Positions 3,050 to 9,781 of a stretch of 11,068 bases of DNA are shown here, piece after piece. This stretch comes from Flavobacteriaceae bacterium. GTDB lineage: Bacteria > Bacteroidota > Bacteroidia > Flavobacteriales > Flavobacteriaceae. Every line of letters starts with the position of its first letter. Positions within the stretch are counted from its first letter, which is position 1. The position numbers were made by a program, and so were the translations under genes. Below the pieces are notes generated by a model. That model had not been told where the DNA came from. It worked only from the letters and a program-made list of their open reading frames with translations, and made no database searches. The stretch is taken from assembly GCA_019090365.1 (NCBI GenBank), contig JAHRWC010000152.1, forward strand, positions 1 to 11,068, in the 5' to 3' direction.

Positions 3050-5242
3050 TTATTCTTCTTTTTCTTCTTGAATTAAATCTAAATCTAATTCATTAAAATT
3101 ATTTGCAGCCTTAACTAATAGGGTAGAACCTATCGTTTCGAAAAGATTGTTTGTTTTTAATACAAACTCAGCTTGTTTTTCAATTTTATAATTAGGAATA
3201 CCTACTATCGTTAAATCTGTTTTAGCAGATTCACTTTCTATAATTGCATAGAATGGGGTTTGTTCAACAGCATTATTAATGATTTTAATGGCAACATTTA
3301 CGCGTAAATCATTTACTAATCTTGTTATTTTTTTGTAGAGAATATCTTCCTTAACATTGTTATTGTTTACAAACAAAACACGAATATTGGTGTTATTCCA
3401 TTTAGGTGCTGCTATAATAAAACGAGCAATGTTCAACATCATTTCTGCATTTTTACTATCAGTTTCACGCCACCATAAATCGACCGTATGGTATTTTCCA
3501 AATTTTGCTTTTCTATCAAAATCTAAATACAACAAATTGTAATCTAGGTGCAAAAGAGTTTCTGTCATTTTGGAATATTCTACAGAACTTTCCATTCCTT
3601 TTGGCCAACCCATCATTATAGTATTAGGCTCAACTCCTGAAAAACCAAAGGATGAAGCAATATTTGTAATCCCTTGGTAAATATTATCAACTTTAATTTG
3701 CCGTGCAAAAATCCCTAGTTCTTTAAAATTTTCATCATGAACAACTTGTTCAGTTTTTTTCAGTGGCTTTTTGTTTTCCTTATCTAATATTAATTTAAAA
3801 TTAGTAACAACTCCAGTTCGCCCTGAAACTGTTTTACCTAATTCTAATAAATATTTTTGATGATCACTTCTACCACTAAATAAAATAATATTTGGATTCC
3901 AATTAGTGTTTTCAACATCTTGTGAGTCAATCTTTTTTAGCCCTTTGTTAACTACATTTTCCCAAACACTCCGCCATACATCGTTTGATTGAATTTTCAC
4001 TTCCTTTCGTTGTAACCAAAAATACAATCCTCCAATAACTGCTAATGCTCCAAACATAGCAATCATATCGAGTTTAAACATCACAATAAAGCATGCAATA
4101 AAACCAAGTAAACCAATCCAACGTTTTATCTTAAAAGAGGGTTGGAAATCTGGATTTGCCCAACTTTCAAGAAAATAAGAAATATTTATAAATCCATATG
4201 CAGTTAAATAAAACATAGAAACCACTCGAGCAATAACGTCTAATTCACCAATTAAAATTCCTGCTTCAGCAATAAAGAACACCATAAACAATGCGTTAAC
4301 TGGCTCATTATTTGCCCCTTTTCCTTTACTAAAAATCTTTGGCGTAACTTTATCAATCGACATAGCTTGTAGTATTCTAGGCCCACCTAAAATACCTCCC
4401 AAAGCTGAAGAAAGTGTAGCTCCCCAAATTCCTGCAACTACAGCTGGAGCAAACAATGCAATTTTCATTAAGATATTATAATCAGATTTTAATACTTCTG
4501 AATCTACAGTAACAGCCAAAAATATTGCAAGAATAATATACACTATAAGTCCAACTCCAATAGCATATAATGTCCCTCTTGGAATTGATCTTTTTGGATC
4601 TTTCAGATCACCGCTCATTGCAATACCTGCTGTAAATCCGGTAACTGCGGGAAAAAATATAGCAAATACTACTTCCATCGGGACAGAACCTTCCGTAGAA
4701 AACAATGCAATTGTCTGTGGAGCAGCTTCAGAAGTCCCTAGAAAAACAGCAACTAATGAAAGTATGATTGCAGCTAATATGATGTATTGAGCTTTTAGAG
4801 CAACTGAAGTACTGATTAATGCTAATGCAGTAAGTGATACAAGAGCAATTGTTCCTGTAAAACGTAAATCATCTATGCTTGTACCAAACCCAAAATAAGC
4901 ATTAAAACTTTCAGAAAAACCAATTAAATACAAAGCTATGGAGAATGCAGTTCCAACATATAAAGCTATTCCTATGGAGCCTCCAATGGGAATTCCCATA
5001 CTTCTGGAGAGCACATAATAAATTCCTCCAGCTCCAATTTTTTTATCAGTAGCTACAGAAGAAACACTTAAGCCCGTAGTAACAGCAATAACATGAGCAA
5101 TAATAATGATAATGATAGCACCAATAAGACCGGCGTTACCAACCACCCAGCCTAAACGCATGTACATAATTACCCCTAAAATTGTTAATAGGGAAGGTGT
5201 AAACACCCCTGCAAATGTTCCAAATTTATTTTTTTCTGGCAT
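3050..5242 (-). CDS. SLC12-type cation-chloride cotransporter (APC superfamily), first copy
   Basis: This 730-residue membrane protein has a transmembrane core (about residues 14-412, roughly 12 helices) and a soluble C-terminal domain (413-730). TM1 reads LLTILGVIMYMRLGWVVGNAG, close to the SLC12 signature, and IGAGGIYYVLSRSMG follows. FFPAVTGFTAGIAMSGDLKDP (196-216) is the SLC12 TM6 segment. By eye against NKCC-type transporters remembered from the literature, the K+-site residues Tyr105, Pro198 and Thr201 are kept, as is the TM8 pair Ser278-Ser279 of the Na+ site; K-Cl transporters lack this pair. The TM1 Asn of NKCC is Thr20 here. The C-terminal domain carries VEPNTIMMGWP (537-547) and VDLWW (587-591), both matching SLC12 C-terminal motifs. 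It is predicted to move Na+, K+ and/or Cl- across the inner membrane; true ion selectivity is untested, and amino-acid or polyamine transport cannot be excluded. It leads an operon with the nitroreductase and ends in a very acidic tail (QEEKEE). Confidence 0.88.
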   Translation of the reverse strand: MPEKNKFGTFAGVFTPSLLTILGVIMYMRLGWVVGNAGLIGAIIIIIIAHVIAVTTGLSVSSVATDKKIGAGGIYYVLSRSMGIPIGGSIGIALYVGTAFSIALYLIGFSESFNAYFGFGTSIDDLRFTGTIALVSLTALALISTSVALKAQYIILAAIILSLVAVFLGTSEAAPQTIALFSTEGSVPMEVVFAIFFPAVTGFTAGIAMSGDLKDPKRSIPRGTLYAIGVGLIVYIILAIFLAVTVDSEVLKSDYNILMKIALFAPAVVAGIWGATLSSALGGILGGPRILQAMSIDKVTPKIFSKGKGANNEPVNALFMVFFIAEAGILIGELDVIARVVSMFYLTAYGFINISYFLESWANPDFQPSFKIKRWIGLLGFIACFIVMFKLDMIAMFGALAVIGGLYFWLQRKEVKIQSNDVWRSVWENVVNKGLKKIDSQDVENTNWNPNIILFSGRSDHQKYLLELGKTVSGRTGVVTNFKLILDKENKKPLKKTEQVVHDENFKELGIFARQIKVDNIYQGITNIASSFGFSGVEPNTIMMGWPKGMESSVEYSKMTETLLHLDYNLLYLDFDRKAKFGKYHTVDLWWRETDSKNAEMMLNIARFIIAAPKWNNTNIRVLFVNNNNVKEDILYKKITRLVNDLRVNVAIKIINNAVEQTPFYAIIESESAKTDLTIVGIPNYKIEKQAEFVLKTNNLFETIGSTLLVKAANNFNELDLDLIQEEKEE

Positions 5243-6077: not shown

Positions 6078-6091
6078 ATGATTTTTATCAT
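6078..6091. promoter_or_regulatory. Crp/Fnr-type operator upstream of the first repeat-protein gene
   Basis: ATGATTTTTATCAT is a palindrome with the TGAT-N4-ATCA core of FNR-like boxes (E. coli consensus TTGAT-N4-ATCAA). Its centre is 36.5 bp upstream of the last base of the putative -7 element at 6114-6121. If transcription starts about 5 bases after that element, the box is centred near -41.5, the classic class II activator position. A near-identical box sits at the same spacing before the paralogue. Confidence 0.65.
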
Positions 6092-6113
6092 CCTTTTACT
6101 AAGGATTCTTGCA

Positions 6114-6121
6114 TAACTTTA
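6114..6121 (+). promoter_or_regulatory. -7 element (TAACTTTA) of the first repeat-protein gene
   Basis: TAACTTTA differs from TAnnTTTG only at the last base and lies 20 bp before the ATG at 6142. No TTG -33 element is seen, which fits a promoter that depends on an activator bound at the upstream palindrome. Confidence 0.5.
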
Positions 6122-6141
6122 TGTAATTAAAATTCTGAAAG

Positions 6142-6756
6142 ATGAAAACAATCAAAAAAGCAAAACTAGCCTCAAAATTTATTGGTTTAATATTCTTTTT
6201 ATTTGCATTTTCTTATGCCAATGCACAGGTTTTAACCAATAAAAAAACTGACCTTAATAAGCCTGAAGCACAAATCCAAGAAGATGTTTTATGGAGTGTG
6301 AAAGCTTATAGACCTGATGATAATTTACTTAAAATAAAAGCTATTGATAAAGCAGGTAATGTTTATGATGTTAAAGCAATTCAGGATTCTCCAGACACTA
6401 AAATTTTAAATGTAAAAGTGTTATTTAAAAATAAAGTATTGCCCATAAAATTAATTGCTAAAGACAATGAGATGTATTACCCAGCAAAGGCTATTGATGA
6501 AAATGGTAATTTACTTGAAATTAAAGCTATCACAGAAGATGGTACTTATCTAGATGTTAAAGGAATTCGTAAAACTGGAAATATTATCCATATGCGGGCA
6601 ATTACAAGCGACTCAGATTTCTATAACATTGTAGCTGTTTCTCCTAAAGGAAAAGTAAACACTGTAAAAGGTGTGAAGATGATTGATGCAGATGAAGAAT
6701 CTGTAATAAATGGAGTTTCCATTTTTGCGCATCTTAAAGCTATAAGTCAAAAATAG
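6142..6756 (+). CDS. Secreted 12-13-residue beta-repeat protein, first paralogue (function unknown)
   Basis: The 204-residue product begins with a signal peptide (residues 1-29, ending YANAQ). After a short linker (30-48) almost the whole mature protein is a run of about 12 short units of the form hydrophobic-x-x-V/I-K-A-I-x-x-x-G-x. Examples are VLWSVKAYRPDDN, LLKIKAIDKAGNV, YDVKAIQDSPDTK, YYPAKAIDENGN, LLEIKAITEDGT and YLDVKGIRKTGN. Each unit looks like one beta-strand plus a turn, so a beta-barrel, propeller or solenoid is likely. There is no cysteine, no catalytic motif and no type IX sorting domain, so a periplasmic location is most probable. The paralogue at 6902 is about half identical by eye, with the same order of units and the same ending (VINGVS-FAH-KAI). 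Its own promoter carries an Fnr-type box and its own terminator follows. I do not recognise a named function; similar uncharacterised proteins probably exist in other flavobacteria. Confidence 0.85.
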   Translation: MKTIKKAKLASKFIGLIFFLFAFSYANAQVLTNKKTDLNKPEAQIQEDVLWSVKAYRPDDNLLKIKAIDKAGNVYDVKAIQDSPDTKILNVKVLFKNKVLPIKLIAKDNEMYYPAKAIDENGNLLEIKAITEDGTYLDVKGIRKTGNIIHMRAITSDSDFYNIVAVSPKGKVNTVKGVKMIDADEESVINGVSIFAHLKAISQK

Positions 6757-6782
6757 AATATCATAAAATTATTTAATAATAC

Positions 6783-6815
6783 ATAAAAGTGAGAATGTTT
6801 AATTCTCACTTTTAT
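6783..6815 (+). terminator. Hairpin terminator between the two repeat-protein genes
   Basis: ATAAAAGTGAGAAT (6783-6796) pairs perfectly over 14 bp with ATTCTCACTTTTAT (6802-6815) around a GTTTA loop. The 3' arm ends in TTTTAT and ATTTA follows. It separates the transcription units of the two paralogues. Confidence 0.75.
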
Positions 6816-6839
6816 ATTTAGAAAAATTCATTATCTACG

Positions 6840-6853
6840 ATGACTTTTATCAT
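6840..6853. promoter_or_regulatory. Crp/Fnr-type operator upstream of the second repeat-protein gene
   Basis: ATGACTTTTATCAT matches the box at 6078-6091 in 13 of 14 positions; the single change (T to C) breaks one symmetric pair. Its centre is again exactly 36.5 bp upstream of the end of the -7 element (6876-6883). Confidence 0.62.
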
Positions 6854-6875
6854 ATTAATTTGTAGGCTTAATCCA

Positions 6876-6883
6876 TAAATTTG
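6876..6883 (+). promoter_or_regulatory. -7 element (TAAATTTG) of the second repeat-protein gene
   Basis: TAAATTTG fits the TAnnTTTG consensus exactly and ends 19 bp before the ATG at 6902. It overlaps the TTG at 6881, which therefore cannot be the true start codon. Confidence 0.62.
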
Positions 6884-6901: not shown

Positions 6902-7522
6902 ATGAAAACAATTGATCGAATTCCGAATTTTTCAAAAATTAGTGGATTATTTATTCTTTTAATTTTAGTGTCAACGAGTGGTTTTGCACAGATAAAAAAT
7001 GAAAATCGTTCAGAATTAATTAAGCCTGAAACTGAAATAACAAATGATTTATTTTGGCATGTAAAAGCATTCAGACCTGAAGCTCAACTTTTAAAAGTAA
7101 AAGCAGTTGATAAAAAGGGAAACATTTATGATGTAAAAGCAATACAATCTTCAGAAAGTACAAGTGTACTAAATGTAAAAGCTATAGTAAATGATAAGCA
7201 ATTTCCTATAAAAGTAATATTACCAACAGGGAATGATAAATATTATCCTGTAATGGCTATTACAGAAAAAGGTAAATTATTAACTATAAAAGCATTTACA
7301 AGTGATAATAGATACCTAGATATAAAAGGTGTTAGCAAAACAGGAAATATTATTCATTTAAGTGCGATAACTGATGATAATAAAGCATTTACAATTATTT
7401 CTATTTCACCGTTTGGAGAAGTAAACTCAGTTGTTGGTGTAAAAATGACCGATTCAGTTGAAGAAGCTGTTATTAATGGAGTTTCAGTTTTTGCGCATGT
7501 AAAAGCTATAAAACAAGATTAA
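6902..7522 (+). CDS. Secreted 12-13-residue beta-repeat protein, second paralogue (function unknown)
   Basis: I place the start at ATG 6902 (206 residues) rather than at the in-frame TTG 6881. The ATG gives the same MKTI opening and nearly the same length as the paralogue, and the TTG lies inside the promoter. The signal peptide is residues 1-30 (GLFILLILVSTSGFAQ at its end). The mature part repeats the same 12-unit plan: LFWHVKAFRPEAQ, LLKVKAVDKKGNI, YDVKAIQSSESTS, VLNVKAIVNDKQF and so on to SVFAHVKAIKQD. The best-conserved parts between the paralogues are KGN/AGN-YDVKAIQ, the KTGNIIH unit and the VINGVS-FAH-KAI end. There are no cysteines and no enzyme motifs. The protein is probably periplasmic; its binding partner is unknown. 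The pair arose by tandem duplication that included the promoter. Confidence 0.85.
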   Translation: MKTIDRIPNFSKISGLFILLILVSTSGFAQIKNENRSELIKPETEITNDLFWHVKAFRPEAQLLKVKAVDKKGNIYDVKAIQSSESTSVLNVKAIVNDKQFPIKVILPTGNDKYYPVMAITEKGKLLTIKAFTSDNRYLDIKGVSKTGNIIHLSAITDDNKAFTIISISPFGEVNSVVGVKMTDSVEEAVINGVSVFAHVKAIKQD

Positions 7523-7548: not shown

Positions 7549-7590
7549 AAAGAATAATGCCTAATTCATTTAGGTATTATTCTTTTTTTT
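7549..7590 (+). terminator. Rho-independent terminator after the second repeat-protein gene
   Basis: AAAGAATAATGCCTAA (7549-7564) pairs with TTAGGTATTATTCTTT (7570-7585) over 16 bp with one G-T wobble and a TTCAT loop. A T run to 7590 follows. It overlaps the stop codon of the convergent transporter gene by two bases. Confidence 0.85.
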
Positions 7591-9781
7591 ATGCCAAAAT
7601 ACTTTCATGACCAGAGTCTTTTACAAATAAGCAAGAGCTATTTGTTTTTAAAGTGATTTTATTGACAAACTCAAACTGAAGGTCTTCATGCATCCCAAAT
7701 ATATTTAAATCGGCAGTAGGAGCATTTTTAACAATTGTATTAAAATCACCTACATGAACTTCAGTTAAGGTTTGTGGAAGCCTTGCAAGGCTAATTAAAG
7801 AGCTTAAAAACTCTTTGGCATTTTTCTCCTCGTTTGGATCTGAAATAACTGTAATCAATCTTATTTGAGCATTCCAATTCATTTTAAGTTTATAGGCAAC
7901 TAATATTGAAAGGTCTAAATTTCCAATATCCCATCCTAAGTTCCAATTGCCTTGGCGATCACTTACCCAAACATTAATGATATTTCGTTGCCCTAAAAGA
8001 GCTGTTGGATGTGATACATATAGAAGTACTCCAATTTCTAAGCGAATAGATTCTTTAATAACGGGACGTAACTCAGTTTCATAATTATCATGATTCTGAA
8101 AGTTTAAAAAGATAATATTTGGCCTAAAAAAAGCTCCTTGTAAGGCTTGACTTCCATAGTTAATGCCATTTGCATATTCATCTGTATGAATTACAGTAGA
8201 AGAAGAAAACACATCTTTCTGTCTAAAGGCAGCTGAAATTTCTTCTAAGTCTGATGCAAGTGTACTTGTTTCAGAAAAAGGTTGAATCCCTAATAGCTTT
8301 ATTGAACCTTTCGGTTTGGCAATATTTCTTAAAAACTCAAACGAACCTTTTAAACCATTTACATCTCTCACAGGAACCATTAAATTTGCTTTCCAAGCAC
8401 GTTGTTGCATCTTTTTCATACCCCAAGTATGCTTAGCTGCCCATTCAGCAAAAGAAACAAATAATCCAGAACGTACATCCTCAAATGGAGTTTCTAAATT
8501 TTGTCTAGATAAGTACCAGTACACCATTAATACGATCATTATAGAAACCAAACTAACCGTTGGATTGATAATGAACATTGCAAAAACTGAAGAGATTAAA
8601 CCCATCCAAGGCACCCATTTTTTTATTTTAAAAATTGGTCGGTAGCTAATCAATCCTAGTCTCTGCTCAATGATTACGACAATATTTATCATTGCATAGG
8701 TTATCAAAAAGAAGAGTGTAACTAAAGGCGCTACAACATTTAAATTTCTTAATAACAATGTTAGAAATATTAAAATACCTGTAACTAGCATAGCATTTCT
8801 TGGCTGTCCGCTTTTGCTTTGTCCATATAAAAAATTGGAATAGGGAAGTACCTTATGCTCACCCATAGCAAATAAAATACGTGATGAGCCAACAATAGAT
8901 GCTAATGCAGATGAAAAAGTGGCACCTAATATTCCTGCAATAATCAAGGGTCCGAAATAAGCCTTCTCAACCATGATATAATAATTGTTGATCAATTCAT
9001 GTTCAGTTGCACTTCTTGAAATCCAAAATGCAAGCACCATATAAATGATAAAACTCACTCCAATTGCCCATAAAGTTCCTGTTGGAATGCTTTTTTTTGG
9101 GTTCTTTAATTCACCCGACATATTTGCACCAGCCATGATTCCTGTAGCAGCGGGAAAAAATACAGCGAAGACGACCCAAAAATTACTGCCGCTAAACTTA
9201 TTTTCTATTGATCCTTTAAATGAGCCCCAACTTAAAGCTTCATTTGTTGGAATTACCATAGATCCTTCATAGGCTGCAATTACGATTGAAACTAAGGAGA
9301 GGATAATAATTCCCATGATTATAAATTGGGTTTTGATTGCCAAATTTGCGCTGATATAAGCTATTGTAAAAAGTACTCCAAAAACAATAATGTCTACTAG
9401 AAATGCATTGTGATCTGGAAAAATACCTAGCCAACCTTCTCTAAAACCAAAGATGTACATGGTTACAGCTAAGCCTTGTGAAATATACCTTGGAATCCCT
9501 AAACTTCCACCAACTTCTAATCCTAGAGCTTGTGAAACAATTGCATAAGCTCCACCAGCCCCAATACGAATATTAGTTGTAATGGCAGACATAGAAAGCG
9601 CTGTACACAGTGTTATTAGAAAAGATATAATGATAATTAACCAAGCACCTAGAAGTCCTGCATTACCAACAACCCAACCAAGACGCAAGTACATGATAAC
9701 TCCTAATATTGTAAGTAACGTAGGAGTAAAGACACCTCCAAAGGTGCCAAACTTTTTCATCTGTTTTGGTTGGTTTTCCAT
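7589..9781 (-). CDS. SLC12-type cation-chloride cotransporter (APC superfamily), second copy
   Basis: This 730-residue protein has the same layout as the copy at 3050-5242: a membrane core (about 18-425) and a soluble C-terminal half. TM1 is TLLTILGVIMYLRLGWVVGNAG and the TM6 signature is VFFPAATGIMAGANMSGELKNP (207-228), closer to animal NKCC proteins than the first copy. Tyr109, Pro210, Thr213 and Ser290-Ser291 occupy the positions of the K+ and Na+ site residues, and the TM1 Asn is Thr24. In the C-terminal domain FFRPNIIFLNFQ (551-562) and INVWV (602-606) correspond to the SLC12 PNT-LG and DVWW motifs in weaker form, and the N-terminus is six residues longer. The two copies differ widely outside the core, so they are old paralogues and not a recent duplication. 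It is transcribed alone, towards the repeat-protein pair, and is divergent from the patatin gene. Substrate specificity is inferred from family motifs only. Confidence 0.88.
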   Translation of the reverse strand: MENQPKQMKKFGTFGGVFTPTLLTILGVIMYLRLGWVVGNAGLLGAWLIIIISFLITLCTALSMSAITTNIRIGAGGAYAIVSQALGLEVGGSLGIPRYISQGLAVTMYIFGFREGWLGIFPDHNAFLVDIIVFGVLFTIAYISANLAIKTQFIIMGIIILSLVSIVIAAYEGSMVIPTNEALSWGSFKGSIENKFSGSNFWVVFAVFFPAATGIMAGANMSGELKNPKKSIPTGTLWAIGVSFIIYMVLAFWISRSATEHELINNYYIMVEKAYFGPLIIAGILGATFSSALASIVGSSRILFAMGEHKVLPYSNFLYGQSKSGQPRNAMLVTGILIFLTLLLRNLNVVAPLVTLFFLITYAMINIVVIIEQRLGLISYRPIFKIKKWVPWMGLISSVFAMFIINPTVSLVSIMIVLMVYWYLSRQNLETPFEDVRSGLFVSFAEWAAKHTWGMKKMQQRAWKANLMVPVRDVNGLKGSFEFLRNIAKPKGSIKLLGIQPFSETSTLASDLEEISAAFRQKDVFSSSTVIHTDEYANGINYGSQALQGAFFRPNIIFLNFQNHDNYETELRPVIKESIRLEIGVLLYVSHPTALLGQRNIINVWVSDRQGNWNLGWDIGNLDLSILVAYKLKMNWNAQIRLITVISDPNEEKNAKEFLSSLISLARLPQTLTEVHVGDFNTIVKNAPTADLNIFGMHEDLQFEFVNKITLKTNSSCLFVKDSGHESILA

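Follow-up and report, generated by a model that had tools for sequence, protein, structure and literature searches.

We identified two FNR-type palindromes with the same promoter geometry ahead of two tandem genes of the DUF7486 family in an 11,068-nucleotide stretch of DNA from a Flavobacteriaceae bacterium (the window, Table 1). It is likely that both are class II activator sites centered at −41.5 and that they turn on the two genes at low oxygen, with an FNR-like protein of the same genome, designated Fnr1, as the likeliest activator. The class II reading, which was the core of the original prediction, is well supported by the exact geometry, by a scan of the family, by the upstream regions of most DUF7486 genes and by the −41.5 position.

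Table 1. Promoter features and genes of the DUF7486 pair in the window.
Feature	Position	Strand	Description
FNR-type box 1 ATGATTTTTATCAT	6078..6091	+	centre 6084.5 (−41.5)
22-bp spacer 1	6092..6113	+	10/22 bases common with spacer 2
−7 element 1 TAACTTTA	6114..6121	+	σA type; one mismatch to TAnnTTTG
Predicted transcription start 1	6126	+	predicted with the −7 element ending at −5
DUF7486 gene A	6142..6756	+	204 aa; profile E 3.2e-60; signal-like N-terminal helix, all-beta body
FNR-type box 2 ATGACTTTTATCAT	6840..6853	+	centre 6846.5 (−41.5)
22-bp spacer 2	6854..6875	+	
−7 element 2 TAAATTTG	6876..6883	+	all TAnnTTTG positions match
Predicted transcription start 2	6888	+	predicted as for start 1
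DUF7486 gene B	6902..7522	+	206 aa from ATG 6902; profile E 1.2e-57

Comparison of the two promoters showed that the boxes are identical at 13 of 14 bases and that the distance from the box centre to the last base of the −7 element is exactly 36.5 bp in both, as had been proposed. The spacers have largely diverged, with only scattered identities (10 of 22 bases, including AGG-TT). A −7 element is present in both promoters, with no evident −33 element. The box alone is uninformative in AT-rich DNA: when up to three mismatches were allowed, it had 12 matches in the window against 10.5 expected from shuffled sequences, a frequency that would agree with palindromes arising by chance. However, the combination of box, spacing and −7 element was found twice in the window and not once in 200 dinucleotide shuffles. 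Genomes were scanned with the pattern TGAYN4RTCA-N23-TANNTTTR, and the same pattern reversed served as a control. The genome of the window (an assembly of 2.55 Mb in 452 contigs, 88% complete) contained 22 exact-geometry matches versus 0 for the reversed pattern, and 149 genomes of the family, one per genus, contained 2137 matches versus 79 for the control. At least five sites were present in 116 of these 149 genomes, and at least five control matches in none. When the gap was left free (TGATN4ATCAT with 7–37 bp, in seven genomes picked from the site-rich ones), it measured 22 bp in 27 of 52 matches, 21 bp in four and 23 bp in three. Outside the family the geometry thins out; in a count by eye, 15 family members had 5–48 sites and 111 genomes outside the class had no more than six. 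A chance origin of the palindromes from AT-rich sequence is refuted by the shuffles and the family counts, and we regard it as practically negligible.

The position of the boxes relative to the transcription start was taken from Flavobacterium psychrophilum, in which mapped starts place the σA element TAnnTTTG at −12 to −5 (available part of PMC9723704). With this placement both window boxes are centered at −41.5 and the starts fall as predicted in Table 1, so that the start map of this relative agrees with the proposed geometry; the 5' leaders would be 16 nt for gene A and 14 nt for gene B. The usual position for activation by E. coli FNR is likewise −41.5, according to the portion of PMC3688515 that was accessible. 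Both window promoters have a palindromic TGA-N4-TCA-type box and, by position transfer from F. psychrophilum, a centre at about −41.5, as class II promoters do. The longest reading frame of gene B begins at TTG 6881, inside its −7 element, and ATG 6902 was taken instead.

Seventy-eight distinct sites gave the operator consensus (A/C)TGA(T/C)N4(A/G)TCA(T/G). Because these sites were gathered by the pattern itself, only the unconstrained positions are informative. The flanks outside the searched pattern are symmetric, with A/C at −48 and T/G at −35 in 91% of sites each, and the spacer carries little information. The initial description of the boxes as FNR-like holds for the TGA-type palindrome but not for its outer base, which is A/C here and T in only 3% of sites, whereas the E. 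coli FNR box, TTGATnnnnATCAA, begins with T. The window promoters resemble the class II promoters of E. coli FNR (dmsA, narG, nirB) in having a palindromic TGA-type box at −41.5, targets of a low-oxygen type and an FNR-like candidate regulator, but they differ from them in having A/C for the outer T of TTGAT and in the −7 element, which is the Bacteroidota TAnnTTTG.

The two genes behind these promoters matched the DUF7486 profile (PF24307) with 202.5 and 194.2 bits versus a gathering cut-off of 27, and are paralogs with 52–53% identity. For PepSY_2 (PF13670), gene A scored 23.8 bits, below the cut-off of 24.3, and gene B had no match at E 0.001; some DUF7486 homologs bear a precomputed PF13670 label. 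In the structural model of gene A, a helix at the N terminus, taken as a putative export signal, precedes a confident all-beta body, and both window proteins are apparently exported. The name DUF7486 was absent from the papers of the literature that we searched. Two SLC12/CCC-type transporter genes on the minus strand (3050–5242 and 7589–9781) flank the pair, and a VTT gene also lies within the interval between them. Prokaryotic CCC C-terminal domains were detected in the second CCC gene only. Neither CCC gene was found in 20 named loci that are described below. One genome of the family set (G034) keeps one CCC gene beside DUF7486, and its protein is 89–90% identical to the second CCC protein of the window, though the genera differ; this likeness possibly reflects horizontal transfer. 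A third DUF7486 gene was found in the window's genome (contig C382, 5256–5450), where it is cut at the contig end, so that its promoter is out of view.

A Pfam search detected DUF7486 in 12 of the 149 family genomes (28 matches). Fifteen leading genes or operons, distributed over 11 genomes from different genera, had their upstream region on the contig and could be evaluated; the other domain of fused genes, the second gene of an operon (L030) and genes at contig ends (in G048 and on C382) were left out. The exact site precedes 13 of the 15. The two exceptions were L032, which has the exact spacing and a box with one mismatch, and L040, which has no site. A second set comprised the 20 named loci and partly overlapped the first (L082 shares the site of G103); it was drawn mostly from Flavobacteriaceae or Flavobacteriales, with two loci from Saprospiraceae. 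Here, 11 loci had an exact site and three had a near one, in which the box was perfect and the −7 element had one mismatch, with the right spacing in L078 and L081 and a spacing 1 bp shorter in L075. The remaining six, including both Saprospiraceae loci, had neither. The expectation that orthologs would keep the palindrome is therefore correct for most of those in other genera, which keep the spacing as well while the spacer sequence diverges, but it fails for six of the 20 named loci.

Additional genes preceded by this geometry were found in the window's own genome. Eighteen of its 22 sites are located outside frames of at least 100 codons and before a frame of at least 45 codons, three are inside frames of at least 100 codons, and one has no downstream frame of at least 45 codons. 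This last exact site (L102:8877-8919, contig C166) could be either spurious or located ahead of a small RNA or small gene. The targets included a divergent pair of 2-oxoacid:ferredoxin oxidoreductase and ferredoxin genes, another ferredoxin, a molybdopterin oxidoreductase, an SQR/FCSD-like flavoprotein, a rhodanese-like gene (assigned by eye), two Usp genes, an S30EA/HPF gene, a flavodoxin and a c-type cytochrome; the other first downstream genes had no Pfam family, had an unspecific family or were outside the scan. Low-oxygen or denitrification genes had been anticipated at such sites. Genes of the low-oxygen or anaerobic type were indeed found at the same spacing, but none of the first frames that follow the own-genome sites was recognized as a denitrification gene. 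The same contig C166 (L102, L103) holds five of the 22 sites and contains a sulfur gene cluster with SQR-like, DsrE, DsrC, rhodanese-like, Fe-S and molybdopterin oxidoreductase genes and a Crp gene.

In a relative (G115), exact sites were present before ccoN-like and hemN-like genes. A ccoI-like gene that adjoins fnr1 in this relative is preceded by a site with one mismatch, and a one-mismatch site was also found between fnr1 and the ccoI-like gene of the window's genome (gene names assigned by eye). Since the geometry lies ahead of low-oxygen metabolism genes of relatives, the two window genes probably share a low-oxygen program. The cbb3 oxidase of F. psychrophilum is up under oxygen limitation (PMC9723704, from the available part), which fits the low-oxygen reading. 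On contig C325 (L105:1-245), one box is common to fnr1 and the ccoI-like gene; it is separated by 22 bp from AACCTTTG on the ccoI side and by 17 bp from TAACTTTG on the fnr1 side. To judge from its spacing, the 17-bp arrangement might serve autorepression.

The window's genome has seven matches to the cNMP-binding domain and encodes, beside the ccoI-like gene, the 230-aa FNR-like protein Fnr1 (L001), which has the Crp/Fnr fold with a cNMP-binding-type domain and an HTH. We analyzed 132 Fnr1 sequences, of which 120 were those listed of 5009 database hits and 12 came from the loci; all were close orthologs (approximately 55% identity or more). C53 and C106 were invariant in all 132, and C4 and C7 were present in 129, the other three having gaps there. 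In a comparison with A. fischeri FNR (27–29% identity in the fold alignments), C4, C7 and C106 align with cysteines which we take to be cluster ligands, the third N-terminal cysteine is opposite Ser13, and C53 is opposite Ala. Fnr1 is similar to the FNR, FnrP and FnrL sensors in its Crp fold and HTH and in three of the four cluster cysteines (CxxC and a strand Cys), but the third N-terminal cysteine is absent and the additional conserved Cys53 is on another strand. Because of this mismatch, we named the protein FNR-like and did not file it as FNR. In the Fnr1 model, C53 is located in strand 50–56 and C106 in strand 103–109, presumably neighbors in the Crp jelly roll, and residues 1–10 are poorly predicted; it is plausible that C4, C7, C53 and C106 hold an iron-sulfur cluster.

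The recognition helix of Fnr1 reads E-S-x-I-R. Compared with the FNR residues E-x-x-S-R, the Glu and Arg were present in 132 of 132 sequences, and Ile occupied the position of Ser, which A. fischeri FNR has, in all 132. This Ser is one of the recognition residues of FNR, and its replacement by Ile may explain the changed outer base of the operator. The best PDB match of Fnr1, by both sequence and fold, was 2GAU, a Crp/Fnr regulator of Porphyromonas gingivalis, but this protein lacks both the recognition-helix Glu and a Cys where Fnr1 has C53 and C106; C4 and C7 are outside the alignment.

Fnr1 orthologs were detected in 91 of the 149 family genomes (E < 1e-40, a cut-off chosen after inspecting the list, at a gap in it). 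A second candidate regulator, REC-CRP, in which a receiver is fused to CRP, was detected in 65 genomes (E 1e-50); its recognition helix, E-[S/T]-x-I-R as read in five proteins, resembles that of Fnr1. No REC-CRP gene was detected in the window's genome, the assembly being 88% complete. The median number of sites per genome was 27 when both regulators were present (n = 35), 9.5 with Fnr1 only (n = 56), 15 with REC-CRP only (n = 30) and 1 with neither (n = 28), although many of the last 28 genomes are small or incomplete, so that genome reduction and kinship are partial confounders of the co-occurrence. Five or fewer sites were found in 25 of these 28, the exceptions being G048 (29 sites, 82% complete), G147 (16 sites, 73% complete) and G138 (10 sites, with three control matches). 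Crp-type HTH proteins that score above the cut-off occur in 14 of the 28, of which 12 have no more than five sites; in G046, the match is an 85-aa fragment bearing the E[ST]xIR helix. All 12 genomes with DUF7486 had at least 12 sites, and 11 of the 12 had Fnr1 or REC-CRP.

In one relative (L109:2810-6774, L108), fnr1 is clustered with a PAS-like gene, a gene for a receiver-CRP fusion and a Usp gene that carries an exact site, all near a ccoI-like gene. Based on its gene content, this cluster could perhaps feed another oxygen signal into the same operator. Its arrangement presumably resembles the FixL/FixJ-FixK oxygen circuit, except that the receiver and CRP domains are fused in the flavobacterial REC-CRP. 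A metatranscriptome study (PMC8510549, in its available part) placed a Flavobacteriales Crp/Fnr homolog near MalR, as a predicted carbon sensor, which counts against the FNR reading for that homolog.

In the mechanism that we propose, which combines predicted binding, start sites in the source organism, cluster, oxygen signal and export, each palindrome would bind a Crp/Fnr dimer at −41.5 of a σA promoter, and the activator in the window's genome would most likely be Fnr1. On a drop in oxygen, an iron-sulfur cluster held by cysteines would enable Fnr1 to bind (A/C)TGAYN4RTCA(T/G), with the E-S-x-I-R recognition helix contacting DNA. Bound Fnr1 would touch the σ and α subunits of RNA polymerase, transcription would start at about 6126 and 6888, and both apparently exported DUF7486 proteins would be made together with the low-oxygen set. 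Oxygen is the most likely signal, judging from the target genes and the kinship of the regulator.

The same class II sites might instead respond to NO, redox state or sulfide, or be used by one of the paralogs L004, L006 and L007; we consider this unlikely. Iron-sulfur regulators of such a type react with NO too (PMC4771820, as far as the available text goes), and L007 is encoded on contig C166, which also has the sulfur gene cluster and five of the 22 sites, but low oxygen is a better match than NO or sulfide for the ccoN-like, hemN-like, 2-oxoacid:ferredoxin oxidoreductase, HPF and Usp targets. As for the paralogs, L004 has the helix E-V-I-S-R, whereas L006 and L007 are without the recognition-helix glutamate (all read by eye), and the low number of sites (five or fewer) in 12 of the 14 genomes that carry other Crp-type HTH proteins and neither candidate regulator also argues against such proteins as the activator.

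It is highly improbable that the −41.5 site represses, or that it is a passive remnant copied in the tandem gene duplication. The two promoters are paralogous, as a remnant would require, but outside the 10 shared positions the spacer bases have been replaced while box and spacing were kept, here and across genera, and the same fixed spacing is found ahead of unrelated genes. Crp/Fnr proteins also act as repressors, but −41.5 is an activating position (both from the accessible portion of PMC3688515). Activation from class II sites, most likely by Fnr1, is thus the reading that we prefer.

We see about an even chance that Flavobacteriaceae have a low-oxygen network of their own, in which a ligand-rearranged FNR-like sensor (CxxC and two strand cysteines) and a receiver-CRP share one helix type and one operator, (A/C)TGAYN4RTCA(T/G) at −41.5, and which includes the DUF7486 envelope family. 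No paper on an FNR-type regulon in flavobacteria was found among the matches listed in a search of titles and abstract starts, most subscription journals being outside this search. The fixed-geometry operator, with its 2137 matches in 149 genomes, outlines a candidate regulon that can be tested directly in a widespread bacterial family, and DUF7486 is placed in this regulon.
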